Notes: generated by a model from the sequence alone, not told the origin. 64,000 nucleotides of DNA from Bacteroidetes bacterium HGW-Bacteroidetes-1 (GCA_002842755.1 PHDU01000002.1:62001-126000); one strand, 5' to 3'; shown: positions 14,129 through 27,783, counted from the first letter of the stretch. Numbers and translations are program-made.

Positions 14129-15163
14129 ATGAAAAAAAATATTTTACTATTCATTAGCAGCATGATATTGGCTGTTTTAGCAAGCAGTTGCCAAAATGGT
14201 TTACAAAATTTAAAACAGCCCAACAACGGTATCACCATTGCATATTACAATATCGAGAACCTCTTCGACACCATTAACGATCCAAAAATTAATGATGAAG
14301 ATTTTCTTCCAAACGCTAAGGTCAAATGGAATAGTGAGCGCTATTACGCTAAACTCGATAATATTGCAAAAGTTATAGCTGCAATGGATACGCTCGATTT
14401 CCCTCATATAGTTGGGCTTGAGGAGATTGAAAATTTAGCTGTATTAAAGGATTTGATTGCCAATAAACACATCAAGAAAGCAGCATATGAAATTATTCAC
14501 ATAGAAGACCATGATCCGCGTGGCATTGAAGTTGCGATGCTATATCAACCAAAGTATTTCAGAATTGCACATACCCAGGCCATTCCGGTATTTCTGGAAG
14601 GATATGAACGAAGCAACCGACATATTCTATACGTCAAAGGCACAATTGCTACAGGCGATACGCTTCATTTATTTGTTAATCACTGGACCTCACGTTACGG
14701 TGGTAAAGAAGAGACAATTCCTGCAAGAACCGGTACTGCAAACGTTCTTCGTTATAGTATTGATTCGCTCTTTGCCATTAACCCATCAAGCAATATTATC
14801 ATTGGTGGTGATTTTAATGATAACCCTGATGATGCGAGCATTTTTTCTTTCCTAAAGGCTTATGCTCCAAGCGAGGAAACCGCTCAGGCAACTTTATATA
14901 ACCTTGCCATGAAAACCTATCTGGAGGGCAATGGCACGTTGTATTATGATGGCTGGGATTGTTTCGACCAGATCATTGTTTCTTCGGCATTGTTGCAAAA
15001 TGGAAAACTGAAGGCCGGTCCGCTTGAAATAATTAAAAAAGACTGGATGCTTTTTAAACCTCGTGATGGTGAGGCAAGACCAAACCGAACTGCTTCAGGA
15101 AGCAGATACTTTGGCGGATTCAGTGATCACCTTCCGGTAATGGTACGGCTGCAAAAACAGTAA
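14129..15163 (+). CDS. Endonuclease/exonuclease/phosphatase family lipoprotein
   Basis: The ORF track starts at a GTG (14093), but the ATG at 14129 begins a clear lipoprotein signal (MKKNILLFISSMILAVLASSC) and is preferred, giving 344 aa. The rest is the EEP fold: ITIAYYNIENLFDTINDP with the metal-binding Asn, GLEEIENL with the metal-binding Glu, the catalytic GGDFNDNPDD and the C-terminal FGGFSDHLPVMV His motif. Close relatives are annotated as endonuclease or metal-dependent hydrolase; the substrate may be DNA, RNA or a phospholipid headgroup. Being lipidated, it acts in the envelope or outside the cell. It follows the S4 gene by about 60 bp. Confidence 0.87.
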   Translation: MKKNILLFISSMILAVLASSCQNGLQNLKQPNNGITIAYYNIENLFDTINDPKINDEDFLPNAKVKWNSERYYAKLDNIAKVIAAMDTLDFPHIVGLEEIENLAVLKDLIANKHIKKAAYEIIHIEDHDPRGIEVAMLYQPKYFRIAHTQAIPVFLEGYERSNRHILYVKGTIATGDTLHLFVNHWTSRYGGKEETIPARTGTANVLRYSIDSLFAINPSSNIIIGGDFNDNPDDASIFSFLKAYAPSEETAQATLYNLAMKTYLEGNGTLYYDGWDCFDQIIVSSALLQNGKLKAGPLEIIKKDWMLFKPRDGEARPNRTASGSRYFGGFSDHLPVMVRLQKQ

Positions 15164-17806: not shown

Positions 17807-18144
17807 AATGGTTCTCCCATATTAGTATTTACATGCGACCAAAAATATGTTACAAAGGTGCAAAAAATGTGACGACTGCAAAAGAAAAACAAAAGATATG
17901 AAAACCAAAAATACTCTTTTTAGTAATTTTTATGAATCAGACTGTACATGAGAATTGACTCATCTAATAATAAATGTAAAAGTAAACATTGGCGAACAAA
18001 TCCCTTTTTTCATTTTCTGACTGGGTTCGGTTGACTGATTAAAATTTCTGCTTTAAAGTCAAAAACAAAAAAGAAGCTGTCAAAACAGACAGCTTTTTTT
18101 TTTCAAAATAACAATAATTTTAATCGGTAATAAAAATTACCTCT
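17807..18144. other. Intergenic region upstream of the mannosyltransferase, holding one terminator
   Basis: No gene was found. CAAAAATA at 17840-17847 (minus-strand TATTTTTG) may be the -7 box for the mannosyltransferase operon, but the -33 match is poor. The right end contains the hairpin terminator of the phospholipase-D-like gene, listed separately. Confidence 0.35.
18068..18103 (-). terminator. Terminator of the phospholipase-D-like gene
   Basis: AAGCTGTC, a 6-nt loop and GACAGCTT form an 8-bp stem flanked by A-runs and T-runs on the two sides. In minus-strand orientation it follows the stop of the 18145-20676 gene by about 45 bp and ends in CTTTTTTG. Confidence 0.8.
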
Positions 18145-20676
18145 TTAATCGGTAATAATAAGTCTGCTTGTTGAAAGTTTATTATCTTCCTCTAAAACAA
18201 CCGTATATATACCTGACTCAATACCAACACCGGCTAAATTCAGGTAGAACTCTTTTTCGTTGCCTTGAAGATTTACAGTAAACCGTTGTTTCCCGAACAA
18301 GTCAAAAATAGTGATGGTAGCCTTTCCATCCATCATGGTTGAGAGAGGAATATGAATCACATTTTTGGCGGGATTGGGAATTATTTTTAATACTGAATGA
18401 CCATTTAATTCACTTATACTGCTATTATTGATTACAGTCACATAAATTTTTGCAGTTGAAAAAAGTGATGGATCAGCCTGATAAGCGATTTTGTAAATGA
18501 CGGAATCTGTACCAAAGAAGCCTTCATTGGGCATATAGCTTATTACATTTTGATTGGCAAACGGAATGTAGGAATTGCCTTGTGTTGCAGGTTGCTCAAT
18601 ACTCAGAGTCACGGGGGCTTCATTGATATCATTTAGCAGAACTTCAACTGTAATCAACTGATTTATATATGTTTCAACTATATCATTTACTGCAGTTGGT
18701 GGTGTTGTAAGATCGAAAAGAACACCCTGATTATCAACAAAACGTTTTACAAAATGCTGGTAATAAATATTGGCGAGGGTATCATCATGAAAAATCAATG
18801 TGTTTTCATCATTGTCATTATTTGCGGCCGCACTCCAATTATGAGAACCAGTAAAGACCATTGGATCTGAAGACGCGTCACCTTGATCAACAATCATAAA
18901 TTTATGGTGCATCAATCCATTTGAAACATTATCAAAAGTAAAATGTGTCGATAAGGCCTCCGTTAAAACTGTATTTACAGCAGCTGTGTTGCCGCTTTCA
19001 GCATTGGTTATAACGTTCACGGCAACTCCTTCTGATTTGCGTTCTGCAATGGCATTTGCCATTTCAATACGCGTCATGAGCATGGTTGCAATGCTGAGAT
19101 CATTATCAGAAGTGTTGATTACTTCAACTATTCTATTATTCACTCCATCAGAGGGGCTAAAATAACATTCAACACGTTTCCCGTTAATCATAAATTCATG
19201 GGGAGTATTGTTCTTTTTTGTAAAGCCAAATTTTGCATTGGCAGAATTAGGCTCATCGTTATAAGAACCCCACATTTCTTCAAATTCTATTTGATAGGCG
19301 CGTGCAAGACTCTGATCTTGAACGATAATTACATTGTTTGCATCGAGATTGATCTGACCATCGGTAAAGTTTGTTGATCCTGTCCAAACCAGAGGGTCAT
19401 TGGGATCGTTGGATTGGGCATCAAAAACAATGAATTTATTGTGCATAATGCCATTTCGTTCGGAACTACCAGGAGCTATCAACACATGGACATTAGATCC
19501 AATTAGCTCATTAATCCCCAAGTTTGCCGTTGTTCCACACCCTATCACACGAACTCTTACTCCTCTGTTTGTTGCATTTTTTAAAGCATCGCTAATATTG
19601 CTGATTCCGGAATTATTAAAATTATAAATGGTAAAATCAATGGTATATTTAGCGCGATCAATGTAATTTATGAGTGTATCATCCATGGTGCTTGGAAGAT
19701 AAATTGCATCAACGCCATGGGAATATGACACATCCACAGGACTATTGAAGTATGCTTTTATATCGCCTGAAGAATTTGAAATTGTTGCGAATGGGATCAC
19801 AGACGAAAAAGCTGTATCAGATCCACTTACGGAGAATGCCTTTACCCAAGTAATTTCACCTGCGTTCAATCCCGACAAATTAATTTCGTGTGTGGTACTT
19901 CCACCAGTCGATGATGTATAATTTGCCTCAACCAACTCGGATGTAGGACCAAAAAACATCTCAGTTGAACCCGAAATGTTGGTGCTCCAATTGAAATCAA
20001 GTGATGTTTTTGTGAAATTCGCATTGTTTAATGCACCTTCAAGATAAATTGAACTAGGAATAAAAATATCATTCAAATCGCGAGGCAACAACTGATAACC
20101 GCCATTGGGATTGCTATAATCAAATTGAGAGCAGATTGCAGTTAAATTTACCGGAGAACTTGGGATGGGTGTTCCAACAAAATCCTGCCCATTCTTTATG
20201 TAAATTGATCCGGTTTCATTGTTTGCAGTGAAAGTATAGAGTTTATTTCCAGTAAAGTTTTGACCTGCATCATTAAACAACACACCATTTACCTTGACCA
20301 GCATTCCCTCGTAAGGTTCAGAAATCTGAGCGGGAGTCAATACTATAGGATCTGGCAAAGGGTTTCCGGTTGACCTGACAATAACACTTGTAACCGGATC
20401 AATTTCAAGAAGTTGGTTATAGATTTTCAGTGTGCCGGTCACGGTTATTGAGTCGCCACGGTTCACAACACTTACCATTGAGCCATAGGCCGCAATTCCT
20501 GCAGTTTCGTCTTGCAAATATCTGATGATGCCTAATTCAGAACCGTTGGTTGCGATACCTTTTACGGTTACTACTGAACCAACAGGCATTGCTCTGGCTT
20601 CGAGAATACTATTTTGAGCATAACCCAACGAGGTCAGGCTTAATAATAGCGCTAAAATTATGTTTATTTTCTTCAT
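18145..20676 (-). CDS. Secreted phospholipase-D-fold (HKD) nuclease-like T9SS protein
   Basis: An 843-residue exported protein. Order of parts: signal peptide (MKKINIILALLLSLTSLGYAQ); an OB-fold-like domain (about 25-210, VGSVVTVKGIATNGSELGIIR) of the type found in secreted nucleases; an Fn3-like segment; and two phospholipase D half-domains with complete HxKx4D motifs (HNKFIVFD with TGSTNFT, and HHKFMIVD with TGSHNWS). A cadherin-like DxNDIxE segment (PPTAVNDIVETYI) and a T9SS sorting domain (LKIIPNPAKNVIHI to STSRLIITD) follow. HKD proteins include phospholipases and metal-independent nucleases; the OB-fold partner favours a nuclease, but phospholipid cannot be excluded. It starts 10 bp after the TonB-dependent receptor gene, so the two are almost certainly co-transcribed. 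Confidence 0.88.
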   Translation of the reverse strand: MKKINIILALLLSLTSLGYAQNSILEARAMPVGSVVTVKGIATNGSELGIIRYLQDETAGIAAYGSMVSVVNRGDSITVTGTLKIYNQLLEIDPVTSVIVRSTGNPLPDPIVLTPAQISEPYEGMLVKVNGVLFNDAGQNFTGNKLYTFTANNETGSIYIKNGQDFVGTPIPSSPVNLTAICSQFDYSNPNGGYQLLPRDLNDIFIPSSIYLEGALNNANFTKTSLDFNWSTNISGSTEMFFGPTSELVEANYTSSTGGSTTHEINLSGLNAGEITWVKAFSVSGSDTAFSSVIPFATISNSSGDIKAYFNSPVDVSYSHGVDAIYLPSTMDDTLINYIDRAKYTIDFTIYNFNNSGISNISDALKNATNRGVRVRVIGCGTTANLGINELIGSNVHVLIAPGSSERNGIMHNKFIVFDAQSNDPNDPLVWTGSTNFTDGQINLDANNVIIVQDQSLARAYQIEFEEMWGSYNDEPNSANAKFGFTKKNNTPHEFMINGKRVECYFSPSDGVNNRIVEVINTSDNDLSIATMLMTRIEMANAIAERKSEGVAVNVITNAESGNTAAVNTVLTEALSTHFTFDNVSNGLMHHKFMIVDQGDASSDPMVFTGSHNWSAAANNDNDENTLIFHDDTLANIYYQHFVKRFVDNQGVLFDLTTPPTAVNDIVETYINQLITVEVLLNDINEAPVTLSIEQPATQGNSYIPFANQNVISYMPNEGFFGTDSVIYKIAYQADPSLFSTAKIYVTVINNSSISELNGHSVLKIIPNPAKNVIHIPLSTMMDGKATITIFDLFGKQRFTVNLQGNEKEFYLNLAGVGIESGIYTVVLEEDNKLSTSRLIITD

Positions 20677-20686
20677 TTTAAAAGAG

Positions 20687-23473
20687 TTAATTAATGACGA
20701 TTTTTAGGGAGGCAGTAATTTGTCGGCTTGTGCCCATAAATACTGCTGCAGAGCGTGCATCGAAAGTTCCGAATGTTTTTTGTAAATAAGTGTCGTTATT
20801 TCTGGCATCAGAAATATAAACAGTATTCAAAAGGTTTAAAACATTGAATCGAATGGTAAAACCAAGTTTATCGAGGGATTGAATTTTAAAACGATATCCG
20901 GTATGAAAATCGAAGAGGGCATAAGAAGGAATTCTCCATGAGTCAAGCGGGTTTCCCAATTCATCTGTTGATTCTTCGGGATTAAAATCAGCATAATAGC
21001 GATCAAAAAATGTTCCTCCACCTTCAATATACCATCCTTTTATTGGTTCATATCTCAGACTTGCGCCCAGCTGCGTTTGTGCGGCATCTCCAACATGAAT
21101 CCCGGTTGCATCAAAACTAATAATATTCGCAGGCATGTTATTGTCGGTAAAATACATTTGAAGATTTTCAATTTTTTTGTCCCATTCCCAGTTACCAAGT
21201 GATAACAATCCCTGAAATTCAAGATTCCTCTGAATTTTGTATACAAAATCTAACTCCACACCAGTATGCAAAGCATTCATTCCTGGAATATCCCCATATG
21301 TGTAACCTTCAGAGCCAGTAACCGGATCTTCATATTTACTTCTTACCTGATTGGTTGGTTTATTTTGCCAGGCAGTATAATAGGCATTAAGATTAGCCGA
21401 GAAAGATTTACTTGTAAAGGAATAGCCAAGTTCCAATGCTTTTACAATTTCATTTTTCGAAATTGAATCATGCTTGAATTCAGCTGTAAAACCCTTATAG
21501 TAGGATCTGAACTCTCTGGCTTTTGACAAATAGCCAAGATTAACAAAAACGTTGCTTTTTTCGCTAAGATTGTAGTTGGCTCCAGTTTTAAAGGTGAAAC
21601 CAGGCGTATATTTCCAATCTGATTCTCTATTTCCAAAATAGTCCTTCTTTTTGATTCCACTTACAGAGGTAGTAAGGTTAACAAAAGAACTCACTTTACC
21701 AACTTTATATTCTGCTTGTGCAAAGAGCCCCCCCCAGTTTACAAGTCCATCATCATAATAATAAATTTTATCACCTACTTTTTTTACAGCTGCCAAAGGG
21801 TTTGCTTCATAATCAATGCGTTTATCAAACCTGTCTATCACATAGTCGCCACCCAAAAGATCAACAACTTCGCTGTAATGTTCCGCTTTATATGATCTAA
21901 GATCAACCCCTCCGGACAAGTCTATATTATTATTTAGATGATAGCTTAATGATGAAAGTAATCCGTACCAACGGTGGTTATTATTATTCTGCACCAAATA
22001 ATTGGTTGAATAATAAAGATGGTCGCTATAGGTTGGATTGATTGGATATGACAATCCAAATCCAGTATTTGTCGGCTTAGAATTTTGGTTGTAAATACTT
22101 TGCCAGTTAATCTGGCCAATTTCGTCTTCATTGAATCTTTCAGGATTGTTGAGAACGTCTGACGGAGTAATAAGGTTTGGATTCTTGAGACTGTTTCTGG
22201 GCTGCATACCTCCCCCTGTTCCCAGCGAAAGATAAAGTGTGTTAGAAATAACGAGTTTGCTATTTACATTCCATGAGTCACGAAGACTGAACTGAGGTTT
22301 AAAATAGGTATTAACTTGCTCATTGAGGACTTCTCGTTTTGCTTCAGGATTAATGATTCGGGCTGAAAAATCGTTGTTCCATTGCTCAGCATCGCGAATC
22401 AGATAACCCCAATGCTGGTTATAGCTTGTCCCCTGATCTAATATCTCTGGAAAATCAGATGGGTTGACTCCATGCTCTTTTGCATAGGCGGTATCGTAAT
22501 CTGCAATGGAACGTTTGTAACTTCTTTGCTTATGTGTTTGGGGAGCGCCAAAACCAGTAAGGCTTGTGATATGATTTCCCCAACGCTTGTCGATTTTAGC
22601 AAAGAAAAACCAGGCATTTACATTCGTTTGATCTACCCAACCGTCACCAGCTTTATATGCACCCGCAAGCGTTATTCCCCATCCATTGTTTAATTTGCCT
22701 GAATTATATCCAAGGCTGGTTGTCAGTTTTCCATTGATGTCAACACCTTGCTCTATACTTACAGATTGTCTGCTTTCAATACCTTTTGTCAGGATGTTCA
22801 TTGTGCCTCCAACTGAAGGAAGTGCCAGCCTTGATGCTCCAAGTCCACGCTGAACCTGAATGCTTCGTGTAACAGCATCCAAACCAAACCAGTTTGACCA
22901 ATAAACCCAACCATTTTCCATGTCGTTAACAGGAATACCATCAAGCATTACAGCGACATTTCTTTGACTGAATCCACGAATGGTGATGCGTGCATCTCCA
23001 TCCCCACCACCTTGTTGTGTTGCATAAACACCAGGGGTTTTATTTAACAACATTGGAATATCCTGACCTGCGAGACGCTCTTCAATTTTTGCAGGAAGCA
23101 AAGTGGTAAAAGCGACCGGTGTTTCTCTTGAGCGGGCTACGTCACCCACAACAGAGATTTCATCCAACACAATTGTCTCCAGATTAAAAACTATATTCAG
23201 TGGCTTATCAGTCACTGTTATATCCTGCGAAACGGAATTATAACCCACGTATGTCACCTGAAGCGTATAATTACCTTTATCAAGAAGGAGTTTAAACTCA
23301 CCATTGATATCGGTAGAGGTTCCTGTTAAGGTACCTTTTATCGCGACATTGGCTCCAACGACTGTCTCTCCCAGAAAGGAATCCTTTACAACACCGCTTA
23401 CTGTTTGTTTTTGAGCAAAAGAAGCAAAAGAGCAAGCCAAAATTATAGCAAGAAAAAGAATCTTATGTTTCAT
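20687..23473 (-). CDS. TonB-dependent outer-membrane receptor
   Basis: The ATG at 23473 is preferred over the track start because MKHKILFLAIILACSFASFAQ is a complete signal peptide. A carboxypeptidase-regulatory-like domain follows (VSGVVKDSFLGETVVGANV), as in many Bacteroidota receptors, then the plug (about 115-240: RETPVAFTTLLPAKIEERL, ITIRGFSQRNVAVMLDGIPV, VGGTMNILTKG) and a large beta-barrel ending in an aromatic-rich last strand. At about 928 aa it is in the usual range. No SusD-type lipoprotein is adjacent, so it is not a classical SusC/SusD pair. Coupling to an HKD protein (10 bp downstream) and a lamin-tail protein suggests uptake of products of extracellular nucleic acid or phosphodiester breakdown. 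The ligand is inferred. Confidence 0.92.
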   Translation of the reverse strand: MKHKILFLAIILACSFASFAQKQTVSGVVKDSFLGETVVGANVAIKGTLTGTSTDINGEFKLLLDKGNYTLQVTYVGYNSVSQDITVTDKPLNIVFNLETIVLDEISVVGDVARSRETPVAFTTLLPAKIEERLAGQDIPMLLNKTPGVYATQQGGGDGDARITIRGFSQRNVAVMLDGIPVNDMENGWVYWSNWFGLDAVTRSIQVQRGLGASRLALPSVGGTMNILTKGIESRQSVSIEQGVDINGKLTTSLGYNSGKLNNGWGITLAGAYKAGDGWVDQTNVNAWFFFAKIDKRWGNHITSLTGFGAPQTHKQRSYKRSIADYDTAYAKEHGVNPSDFPEILDQGTSYNQHWGYLIRDAEQWNNDFSARIINPEAKREVLNEQVNTYFKPQFSLRDSWNVNSKLVISNTLYLSLGTGGGMQPRNSLKNPNLITPSDVLNNPERFNEDEIGQINWQSIYNQNSKPTNTGFGLSYPINPTYSDHLYYSTNYLVQNNNNHRWYGLLSSLSYHLNNNIDLSGGVDLRSYKAEHYSEVVDLLGGDYVIDRFDKRIDYEANPLAAVKKVGDKIYYYDDGLVNWGGLFAQAEYKVGKVSSFVNLTTSVSGIKKKDYFGNRESDWKYTPGFTFKTGANYNLSEKSNVFVNLGYLSKAREFRSYYKGFTAEFKHDSISKNEIVKALELGYSFTSKSFSANLNAYYTAWQNKPTNQVRSKYEDPVTGSEGYTYGDIPGMNALHTGVELDFVYKIQRNLEFQGLLSLGNWEWDKKIENLQMYFTDNNMPANIISFDATGIHVGDAAQTQLGASLRYEPIKGWYIEGGGTFFDRYYADFNPEESTDELGNPLDSWRIPSYALFDFHTGYRFKIQSLDKLGFTIRFNVLNLLNTVYISDARNNDTYLQKTFGTFDARSAAVFMGTSRQITASLKIVIN

Positions 23474-23504
23474 GGAGGATAATTGTATTAAAATCAAAAC
23501 CTAA

Positions 23505-23545
23505 CAGGTAACTGAAATAAAACAAATTTCTATTTCAATTACCTG
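23505..23545 (-). promoter_or_regulatory. Long stem-loop upstream of the TonB-dependent receptor gene
   Basis: In the minus-strand RNA, CAGGTAATTGAAATA and TATTTCAGTTACCTG form a 15-bp stem with one G-U pair and an 11-nt loop. On the plus strand the same position is a C-A mismatch, so the pairing is better in the minus-strand transcript. It lies 32 nt upstream of the receptor ATG and has no U-run. An intercistronic regulatory or processing hairpin is likely. Confidence 0.6.
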
Positions 23546-23575
23546 CACATATTTCTACTTGATGTATAAGGATAA

Positions 23576-24664
23576 TTATTTAATTAGCACTTTTTGTGTT
23601 GTCGAGCTATTATCATTAAACACAACTTTCACCAGATAAAGACCTTTGCTGTTTGTTCCTGTCAGAATTTTCTGTGTTTTCACAGGCAAAATAAATGCCT
23701 CCTTATAAATTTCTTCACCAACGATATTGAACATCTGAATTGTCTTTATCATTTTATTTGAAACAACAGTAAAATGATCTGAAACAACGGGGTTAGGATA
23801 GATTTTCAAAGATCCTTTTAACACATTTTCACCCAAGGAAGTATAATTTGGATCAGCTACACAACCATGTGTACCAAGATTATCCCAGATATCTTTATAA
23901 ACAAGAAATCCAGTGATGCTATCAATTTTTGCAGGAACAGTATCCCATTCCATGGTTACGTTAAATGGATTAGGGTTTGATACTACCCCCTTAACAACCG
24001 TTGGTTTTCTGATAAGCGTATGATCAGAAGTCCATGACATCCAGTATGGGCCATAAGTCACTCCATCGGTAGCTTTCGATTGAACGATGTAATTGATAAC
24101 TTTTCCTGTGACAGGAGTTCCTGTTGAATTATTATAAGTCAGCGTCGAATCCTGAACAAAAGACCAGCCCGTTTCGCCAGAAATGAGATTTCCCAACCCA
24201 ATCTGGCCAATAAGGTCAACGGGGGTTGCATTTGACATATCAGCATTAGGAACAACACCATTTACTGTTTTTAGAAGCGCAATTGCATCATTTCCATTCA
24301 TATAGGTTGGGGCAGGATAATCACCATCAAGCTGATCGGCCATTGCCTGCAAAACAGGACTGCAAGCAGGTGAACTTGAAGTACTTGTAGTTTGTCCATT
24401 GATCAGAACAAATGTTTTATATGGTTCAATTGTTCCAGACAATTGCGTTACTCCGCCTTCAGTAAATACTGAACTTCCATTACTGAAACGTACAACAAAA
24501 TAATTATTAAGATTTATGGCCTGACTGGTAGGATTATAAATCTCAATGCCTTTATTGTTTCCACTGCCTTCTACATATTCAGAGAAGAACAAATCAGTTG
24601 GGGTTTGTGCAGAAGCATAAAAAGCGCTAAAGACAATACTGATAAATAGTAAAAGATTTTTCAT
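23576..24664 (-). CDS. Lamin-tail-domain T9SS protein
   Basis: A 362-residue exported protein with a signal peptide (MKNLLLFISIVFSAFYASAQ). A lamin-tail domain follows (about 24-160): LFFSEYVEGSGNNKGIEIYNP is its hallmark, then NLNNYFVVRFSNG and NGNDAIALLKTVNG. The middle part (VVKGVVSNPNPFNVTMEWD) lacks a recognised catalytic motif. The C-terminus is a T9SS sorting domain (LKIYPNPVVSDHFTVVSN, then MFNIVGEEIYKE and SKGLYLVKVVFNDNSSTTQKVLIK). Lamin-tail domains in bacteria are often fused to secreted nucleases; here no nuclease domain is visible in the protein itself. It is the first gene of the minus-strand cluster with the TonB receptor and HKD protein, about 100 bp from the receptor gene. 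Confidence 0.85.
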   Translation of the reverse strand: MKNLLLFISIVFSAFYASAQTPTDLFFSEYVEGSGNNKGIEIYNPTSQAINLNNYFVVRFSNGSSVFTEGGVTQLSGTIEPYKTFVLINGQTTSTSSSPACSPVLQAMADQLDGDYPAPTYMNGNDAIALLKTVNGVVPNADMSNATPVDLIGQIGLGNLISGETGWSFVQDSTLTYNNSTGTPVTGKVINYIVQSKATDGVTYGPYWMSWTSDHTLIRKPTVVKGVVSNPNPFNVTMEWDTVPAKIDSITGFLVYKDIWDNLGTHGCVADPNYTSLGENVLKGSLKIYPNPVVSDHFTVVSNKMIKTIQMFNIVGEEIYKEAFILPVKTQKILTGTNSKGLYLVKVVFNDNSSTTQKVLIK

Positions 24665-24874
24665 AAGCTTATTAGTTTTGAATATTAGATAAGTACATTG
24701 ATTTTTAAGCAGATTTTGTATGCAAAGTTACAATAAAATTACAGGGGAACCTTTCAATTGCTAAAGAAAATAATCTGCTTTTACATGGCAGGCATATTGG
24801 TTCAATTGAAAATTACCAACATCCCTTAAAACAGTCATTAACCTTTTGATTAAAAACAGCGAAGTATGAAAATT

Positions 24875-25915: not shown

Positions 25916-26713
25916 ATGAGGAAGATTCTTAAAATGCGTTTGAAACAAGTAGTGGTCACTTTGGTTTTGACATTTCTTGTTCAAACAAGTATTGCTCAAA
26001 CAGCAACAAATTTTAATGTGCTCAACTGTGCTGGCGTTAACTACAATCTGTTTAATGAATTAGATGCAGGTAAAGTTGTTGTTATTGGATGGGCTATGCC
26101 ATGCGGATCGTGCGTACTTCCCTTAAAAACAACATACAATGTAGTTCAAAGTTATCAGAATTCATTTCCGGACCGAGTAGTGATGCTACTTGCTGACGAC
26201 TATGCAAATACACCTTGTTCGTCAATTGACCTTTGGGCAAACAGCAACGGCATGACTAACACAATCAGATTTTCAAATGAAGCCATTAAAATGATGGATT
26301 ATGGATCGACAGGAATGCCAAAAGTAGTTGTTGTTGGGGGAGCTGATCATCAGGTTTTTTATAATGCCAACAATGAAGTTGATCATGTTGCACTTCAAAA
26401 AGCCATTAATGATGCCATTTCAGTTATTACTGCACTGAATGAGTCTGATAATACCAGTGCCTTTTTAAAAATATTTCCGAATCCATCTCAAAATAAAACA
26501 ACTGTTTCATATTCCTTACCATTGTCTTCTAACATAACTATCAGCATCTTTAACGATTCAGGACAGGAAGTCTCGCAAATTTTTTCAGGTTTTGCAGAGC
26601 AGGGACTTAATCGTATTGACGTTCCAACCAGCCAATTACGAAATGGGGTCTATTACCTACAATTGAAACATAATAAAGGGTCGCTGGTCCATAAGTTTTC
26701 AGTTGTAAAATAA
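25916..26713 (+). CDS. T9SS-sorted redoxin-like protein (CGSC active site)
   Basis: A signal peptide (MRLKQVVVTLVLTFLVQTSIAQ, after six extra residues if the first ATG is used) leads to a thioredoxin-like domain (about 30-175). The redox motif is CGSC in VIGWAMPCGSCVLPLK, and TGMPKVVVVGG provides the cis-Pro loop. The C-terminal 75 residues are a T9SS sorting domain (LKIFPNPSQNKTTVSYSLPL to GSLVHKFSVVK). This is the second surface-sorted thioredoxin-fold protein of the window; the 5545-6339 protein has CGPC. Forty-four base pairs downstream lies an outer-membrane barrel protein gene on the same strand, so the two are probably co-transcribed and may work together. The substrate is unknown. Confidence 0.82.
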   Translation: MRKILKMRLKQVVVTLVLTFLVQTSIAQTATNFNVLNCAGVNYNLFNELDAGKVVVIGWAMPCGSCVLPLKTTYNVVQSYQNSFPDRVVMLLADDYANTPCSSIDLWANSNGMTNTIRFSNEAIKMMDYGSTGMPKVVVVGGADHQVFYNANNEVDHVALQKAINDAISVITALNESDNTSAFLKIFPNPSQNKTTVSYSLPLSSNITISIFNDSGQEVSQIFSGFAEQGLNRIDVPTSQLRNGVYYLQLKHNKGSLVHKFSVVK

Positions 26714-26757
26714 GTACTCATTTATTAAATGTTCATTTACCAACAGTACCCGATACT

Positions 26758-27783
26758 ATGAAATTATTTTTTACCATTATCTTTTTCCTTGCTTTTTTTA
26801 ACGAGAGTTTTGGGCAATGCTGTGCAATTGGTGGAGGGAGTCCTCTTGCTGGTGATGTATCGCAGGGAGTATTGAAAGACAAACAATTTGAAATTAGCTC
26901 TAATTATCAATTTACTCATTCAACCAATTTTCTTACCGAGCGTACCCGGGACACCAACTTTTTGGAAAAATTCAGCAGTCAATACCTTTATTCACGCATT
27001 GCATTTGGTCTATCAGAAAGGTTGACTATGTCAATTGAACTTGGCTATTGGCTTGAAAAAAATCAAGTTGGATTGGTCGGCAGAGACTCTTATCTTTCAA
27101 AGGGTATTAGTGATCTGATTCTGTTTCCACGGTATAATATTATCAAGTCAGGTGCACAAAATAAGTTCACGGAACTCACTTTCGGAATGGGTTTTAAAAT
27201 TCCACTTGGAAGCTTCAATGACTCAATTGGAATGATAGAGCCGTTCTCAGGAGAAACCCTTTACAGCACCAAACCACCTGCAGTACAAGCCACTTCCGGA
27301 GCACACGACCTTATCTTTCGACTTTTTTACTCCGGCGGCATTCCTTCTAGTCGCTTTAAGCTTTCTGCCAATGCTGTTTATATACTTAAAGGGTGGAATC
27401 CATTGGGTGAAAAACTAGGAAATTATGCCAGTTTTGGCATTTTTATTGGTCGCACTTTTTTTGAAAAAATGAACGCGGTAATTCAGATAAAAAGTGAATG
27501 GATCGATAAAATGAGAATTAATTCAGATCTAATGATGGTATCTTTCCCCAATTACGATCCTGAAGCAACTGGAAGTAAAAAAATCTTTATTGCCCCACAA
27601 CTGAGCTATCTGCTACAAAACAGGTTTACTTTCTTTTTGCAAAGTGAATTTCCAATTTATCAACAAGTCAATAAAACTCAGATTGCATCACAAACACAGT
27701 TCACGATTGGTTTAACCTATAGATTTATGGCTAAAAATTCAGGAATTATTAATCCCACCATTGTTATTCCACCGGGTAGCTGA
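26758..27783 (+). CDS. Putative outer-membrane beta-barrel protein
   Basis: The 341-residue sequence starts with a signal peptide (MKLFFTIIFFLAFFNESFGQ). The mature N-terminus begins with two adjacent cysteines in a Gly-rich segment (CCAIGGGSPLAGDVSQGVL). The remainder alternates short strands and turns (FEISSNYQFTH, SIELGYWL, ELTFGMGFKIPLG, LSANAVYIL) and ends in an aromatic-terminated strand FTIGLTYRF, all consistent with a transporter-type outer-membrane barrel. The conserved double cysteine at the mature end could bind metal or be a disulfide target for the upstream redoxin; this is inference. No specific family name is assigned. Confidence 0.65.
   Translation: MKLFFTIIFFLAFFNESFGQCCAIGGGSPLAGDVSQGVLKDKQFEISSNYQFTHSTNFLTERTRDTNFLEKFSSQYLYSRIAFGLSERLTMSIELGYWLEKNQVGLVGRDSYLSKGISDLILFPRYNIIKSGAQNKFTELTFGMGFKIPLGSFNDSIGMIEPFSGETLYSTKPPAVQATSGAHDLIFRLFYSGGIPSSRFKLSANAVYILKGWNPLGEKLGNYASFGIFIGRTFFEKMNAVIQIKSEWIDKMRINSDLMMVSFPNYDPEATGSKKIFIAPQLSYLLQNRFTFFLQSEFPIYQQVNKTQIASQTQFTIGLTYRFMAKNSGIINPTIVIPPGS

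Follow-up and report, generated by a model that had tools for sequence, protein, structure and literature searches.

What is the function of a gene cluster in which a TonB-dependent receptor is accompanied by a lamin tail domain protein and a protein with two HKD motifs, with no SusD at its side? The question is raised by a locus of Bacteroidetes bacterium HGW-Bacteroidetes-1 located within a stretch of 64,000 nucleotides, referred to as the window. The initial annotation of this locus had proposed a surface system that degrades extracellular DNA, or phospholipid, and imports the products through the receptor. The three genes were all intact and lay on the minus strand. In order of transcription they were:

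23576–24664, minus strand: gene of a T9SS protein with a lamin tail domain (LTD), 362 aa; PF00932 (60 bits) and Por_Secre_tail (34 bits), both above the cut-off
20687–23470, minus strand: gene of a TonB-dependent receptor, 927 aa; CarbopepD_reg_2, Plug and TonB barrel, all above the Pfam cut-off
18145–20676, minus strand: gene of a T9SS protein with HKD motifs, 843 aa, starting 10 bp past the receptor stop

According to Pfam, the LTD protein consisted of a signal peptide, the lamin tail domain (residues 19–136) and a T9SS type A sorting tail (residues 288–361). The N-terminus of the receptor bore a CarboxypepD_reg-like extension (PF13715, 65 bits), and its start codon is likely the ATG at 23470, which gives a signal peptide, and not the TTG at 23497. 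The HKD protein was composed of DUF5689 (residues 90–204), an Fn3-like domain, two PLD-like domains (about residues 329–650), Big_9 and a T9SS tail. PLDc_2 matched it twice (132 bits) and both HxKx4D motifs were intact (HNKFIVFD...GSTN from residue 412 and HHKFMIVD...GSHNW from residue 590), with H, K and D invariant in the 15 sequences first aligned and likewise in a 26-sequence set. The ORFs and the Pfam matches agreed with the initial annotation in the order of the genes, that is, a T9SS lamin-tail protein before the receptor and, 10 bp after it, a T9SS protein with two intact HKD motifs. The absence of SusD was also confirmed, the ORFs flanking the receptor being those of the LTD and HKD proteins. 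The part of the HKD protein described there as OB-fold-like does correspond to a domain, DUF5689, for which the OB fold itself is only putative. In addition, the T9SS is available to the host because its own genome encodes SprA.

To judge from the sequence, the LTD, receptor and HKD genes are likely co-transcribed. Several elements and one further gene were located within and around them:

24723–24730, minus strand: candidate Bacteroidota −7 element TAACTTTG upstream of the LTD gene, weak and read by eye
23504–23546, minus strand: hairpin of 19 pairs in the LTD-receptor gap, MFE −25.4 kcal/mol, z −3.8
18074–18095, minus strand: terminator-like hairpin 3′ of the HKD gene, 8 pairs plus a T-run
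14129–15163, plus strand: gene of a secreted lipoprotein of the endonuclease/exonuclease/phosphatase (EEP) family, PF19580, 309 bits in Pfam

The −7 element was named on the basis of TAnnTTTG, which we take to be the Bacteroidota consensus. The gap between the LTD and receptor genes is 105 bp and holds a strong hairpin. In 10 of 12 family members, including the window, this gap surpassed nearly all shuffles in folding (z from −2.6 to −7.3), and the hairpin sequences differed among members. As a guess, the hairpin could be an attenuator or an RNA stabilizer setting the ratio of LTD protein to receptor. A dispersed repeat was ruled out, there being no second copy in the window. The EEP lipoprotein gene, at approximately 3 kb from the cluster, is possibly linked to it but outside the core unit; an EEP gene was also found nearby in loci L039, L041 and L046, and adjoined the HKD gene in L067. 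Beside the cluster, positions 25916–27783 (plus strand) hold the gene of a thioredoxin-like protein with a T9SS tail and, after it, that of an outer-membrane-like protein for which Pfam gave no match.

The conservation of the gene order was addressed at three levels. The family survey searched 119 relatives for homologues of the HKD protein, whose neighbourhoods were then read. The LTD-receptor-HKD order was present in 13 family genomes (L037–L041 and L043–L050), while in L042 receptor and HKD genes were seen and the rest was cut by the contig end; the HKD protein occurred alone in genus g3 (L051, L053) and in more distant families. The phylum set comprised 80 named loci chosen by receptor similarity only (37–78% identity), spanning Bacteroidales, Flavobacteriales (Crocinitomicaceae, Brumimicrobium and Fluviicola) and Saprospiraceae. 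Four of them were cut by a contig end, and in 74 of the 76 testable loci the LTD gene was directly upstream of the receptor, the exceptions being L079 and L094. Both the LTD and the T9SS tail were matched in all 40 LTD proteins scanned with Pfam. Downstream of the receptor, two classes of gene were found. The first encodes double-HKD proteins (PLDc_2 in 24/24 scanned, a T9SS tail in 22 and DUF5689 in 16) and the second Endonuclease I (PF04231 in 35/35 scanned, a T9SS tail in 32 and DUF5689 in 20). Most of the other downstream genes were truncated at contig ends, and that of L079 encodes a DUF5689-only protein.

The result was checked independently on 20 high-scoring receptors from other genomes, taken in an even draw of the class. 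The LTD gene was upstream in 18 of them and a nuclease gene was in the neighbourhood in 17 (4 HKD and 13 Endonuclease I); in L239 the HKD gene precedes the LTD gene. The receptor type was detected in 64 of the 247 sampled genomes of the class, about one quarter (E < 1e-200). The three-gene arrangement is far beyond chance, and the order described in the initial annotation holds across Bacteroidota, with either an HKD or an Endonuclease I gene in third place. It must be noted that one record of the set (L126), titled as the chromosome of Glaciecola amylolytica, a gammaproteobacterium (CP034120.1), contains the locus, T9SS tails included, and its receptor is nested within those of Flavobacteriales; the record is probably mislabelled.

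With respect to its identity, the receptor scored far below the models of known families: 95.4 bits with the SusC/RagA model TIGR04056 (cut-off 368), 39.3 bits with the BtuB vitamin B12 model (cut-off 599.7) and 21.7 bits with MxcH (cut-off 925), the siderophore family tested. A place among the siderophore or cobalamin receptors, which would have spoken against the initial annotation, is disfavoured by the last two scores. In the FastTree phylogeny, 84 LTD-linked receptors formed one fully supported clade, outside which fell 9 receptors of DUF5689 operons and 10 orphan receptors. One of the orphans is the paralogue encoded in the window's own genome (G000 C6, L216), which has no LTD or nuclease neighbour. 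When the type of nuclease was placed on the tree, 8 changes between HKD and Endonuclease I were obtained with FastTree and 7 with IQ-TREE (63 labelled receptors), at least 4 of the latter forced by well-supported branches; L077 (HKD) and L083 (Endonuclease I) are sister receptors with different partners. Therefore, one receptor lineage has been repeatedly paired with either of two non-homologous enzymes. Among the remaining receptors, L211, L219, L220, L221, L223 and L224 constitute a related group of orphans without LTD or nuclease neighbours, those of L219 and L224 adjoining an apparent glucose-6-phosphate isomerase gene. A further receptor that falls outside the LTD-linked clade (L217:4932-14962) shares its unit with Endonuclease I, a DUF5689 protein and a protein resembling metallophosphoesterases, and could represent a third design of this kind.

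The chemistry that the HKD enzyme and Endonuclease I have in common is the cleavage of nucleic-acid phosphodiesters. The swapping of the two is the strongest argument in favour of a nucleic-acid substrate over a phospholipid. The HKD protein is the putative surface nuclease of the locus. Moreover, in 18 of the 80 loci, all of the Endonuclease I type and placed in two distinct regions of the receptor tree, the nuclease gene is directly followed by two others. They encode a 5_nucleotid_C protein and a metallophosphoesterase which match UshA 5′-nucleotidase models (one of the genes is cut in L125), and together they look like a split UshA-like 5′-nucleotidase, which suits feeding on nucleotides. 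However, no nucleotidase genes were found beside the HKD-type loci, including that of the window, and this counts against the utilization reading, as does a minority of receptors in the set with neither LTD nor nuclease neighbours (L246, L247) or with no LTD (L079, L094).

In attention to these data, we consider it likely that the locus serves nucleic-acid utilization, with the LTD protein in place of SusD. In the mechanism that we propose, the T9SS would put two proteins on the cell surface, the LTD protein and a nuclease, here the double-HKD protein with DUF5689, and the latter would cut extracellular DNA, RNA or both. The LTD protein, as a stand-in for the SusD of polysaccharide loci, would act as surface partner of the receptor and bind the fragments or pass them on; the receptor would take the oligonucleotides into the periplasm on TonB energy. 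There, phosphate and nucleosides would be freed by phosphatases and nucleotidases whose genes belong to the same unit in many relatives. As regards the initial annotation, comparative genomics strengthened its idea of a surface nuclease combined with TonB-dependent import (gene order, Endonuclease I swap, nucleotidase pair and receptor scores), and weakened its phospholipid option. The hypervariable LTD-receptor pair and the link to a transformation-type operon, both treated below, are additions to it. We know of no TonB-dependent receptor for which nucleic acid is an established substrate.

Among the other explanations, the one that best survives, although we regard it as unlikely, is natural transformation, in which the receptor would draw DNA through the outer membrane while the surface nuclease trims it or generates ends, the role proposed for the DUF5689/beta-barrel operon of Riemerella anatipestifer. 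In that species, natural transformation requires both a beta-barrel protein with CarboxypepD_reg (RA0C_RS04915) and the neighbouring DUF5689+DUF5017 protein (RA0C_RS04920) (PMC8459023), and it is poor in tonB mutants (PMC8383284); the nuclease of the window also bears DUF5689. Operons resembling that of Riemerella by domain architecture only (plug receptor and DUF5689 protein, frequently accompanied by a divergent EEP gene) were present in several sampled genomes. In L067:4366-16273 the LTD, receptor and HKD genes are directly beside an EEP gene and a plug receptor gene, followed by that of a DUF5689+DUF5017 protein, and in L209, L210 and L212 such operons are combined with HKD- or DUF5689-T9SS proteins. 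Nevertheless, the LTD-linked receptors and those of the DUF5689 operons belong to separate clades, and no close match to the latter type was found in the window's genome, where DUF5689 occurs only on the HKD nuclease. Likewise, a secreted endonuclease and neighbouring nucleotidase genes are better suited to feeding than to keeping long DNA intact. ComEC is present in the window's genome, which is not diagnostic of transformation. We take the Riemerella-like operon to be a related DNA-handling system, which is no proof that the window's locus serves transformation. A broader proposal, in which the LTD-receptor pair would be a TonB-driven outer-membrane channel for long DNA, used throughout Bacteroidota for pilus-free uptake in both feeding and transformation, with the nucleases as interchangeable processing subunits, appears rather doubtful to us.

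The variability of the LTD-receptor pair also speaks in favour of the utilization reading. In the three species of genus g15 (L038, L043 and L044) the locus occupies the same site beside Mfd. The flanking proteins (gal and Mfd) are 97–98% identical, 97–99% for one of them, versus 42–48% for the LTD protein, 55% for the receptor and 79–82% for the HKD protein. At the DNA level, an identity of about 93% extends to the first LTD codons, collapses through the LTD and receptor genes and is back at 76% in the HKD gene. The same contrast between flanks and pair was observed in genus g6 (L047 versus L050). Such a pattern would be compatible with same-site replacement or with extreme divergence between the g15 species. 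The paired divergence suggests a joint function and diversifying selection, with phages, bacteriocins or the substrate perhaps providing the pressure. By itself, however, it is no proof of contact between the two proteins, because in the mirror-tree analysis the distances of LTD protein, receptor and HKD protein all correlated about equally, the LTD-receptor pair no better than either of them with the HKD protein. The AlphaFold2 model of the LTD protein (pLDDT 84.5) matched only the T9SS tail (RemA CTD) and generic Ig-like folds. Extracellular nucleases serve defence and biofilm roles in other bacteria, and a hypervariable pair is what would be expected of phage or bacteriocin targets. A nuclease that frees the cell from extracellular DNA, in surface defence or biofilm remodelling, beside a receptor that imports something unrelated is nonetheless improbable, given how tightly a single receptor clade is linked to a nucleotidase and to nucleases of two unrelated types.

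The model of the HKD protein (pLDDT 86.4) matched phospholipase D, the exonuclease PLD3 and Zucchini, by which the fold search did not decide between nuclease and lipase substrates, and the top match, a bacterial phospholipase D (7e0m), counts against a nuclease. By sequence profile the nearest solved structures were Zucchini/MitoPLD, Nuc and NucT. All scores with family models were below the cut-off: 60 bits with NucT (cut-off 297) and 15 with cardiolipin synthase (cut-off 290) for the HKD protein, and, with the ExeM/NucH models, 53 for the LTD protein (cut-off 1300) and 16 for the HKD protein (cut-off 300). Phospholipid scavenging, that is, a phospholipase D whose freed head groups are imported by the receptor, is very improbable even though the PLD family includes phospholipases and one of them is the top fold match, and it was rejected as main reading on the Endonuclease I swap, this enzyme, for which to our knowledge no lipid activity or role exists, being present in all 35 non-HKD loci scanned. 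The profile matches, which favour Zucchini, Nuc and NucT, and the low cardiolipin synthase score also speak against it.

If nucleic-acid utilization is the true function, a nucleic-acid substrate would be assigned to receptors that roughly one in four sampled genomes of the class encodes, and lamin-tail proteins would be added as possible substitutes of SusD. It would also help to explain how Bacteroidota, in which extracellular nucleases are common (PMC8289736, PMC11495043), take up the released products. In addition, the locus offers a concrete case in which to test whether transformation and the uptake of DNA as a nutrient use common machinery. In the open-access literature covered by the search, no description of a conserved LTD-receptor-nuclease locus was found; the system is apparently both widespread in Bacteroidota and undescribed.

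Some of its traits are nevertheless found in known systems. The SusCD polysaccharide loci and the Pus loci of Flavobacterium, which are low-phosphate (phosphate utilization) SusCD loci (PMC8115612), likewise cluster a CarboxypepD_reg TonB-dependent receptor with a degradative enzyme and a surface partner, but in the window the partner is an LTD protein and not SusD, the receptor is far below the SusC cut-off and the enzyme is a T9SS nuclease. The Riemerella operon shares a TonB-receptor-like barrel beside a DUF5689 protein and probably handles DNA, whereas the window's receptor is of a clade unlike that of the look-alike operons, DUF5689 is carried by the nuclease, the DUF5017 protein is lacking and an LTD protein is added. 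ExeM/NucH and the F. johnsoniae proteins EndA1 and EndA2, the latter two with LTD and Endonuclease I and induced by phosphate depletion (PMC8115612), also unite an LTD with a secreted nuclease domain; in them both are part of one polypeptide, while in the window they are encoded by separate genes flanking that of the receptor. The induction of EndA1 and EndA2 is a further point in favour of nucleic-acid utilization. Finally, Nuc/NucT and Zucchini nucleases have the HKD fold and motifs and are the closest in sequence profile, and the window's protein differs from them in having two HKD halves in a single chain, together with DUF5689 and a T9SS tail.
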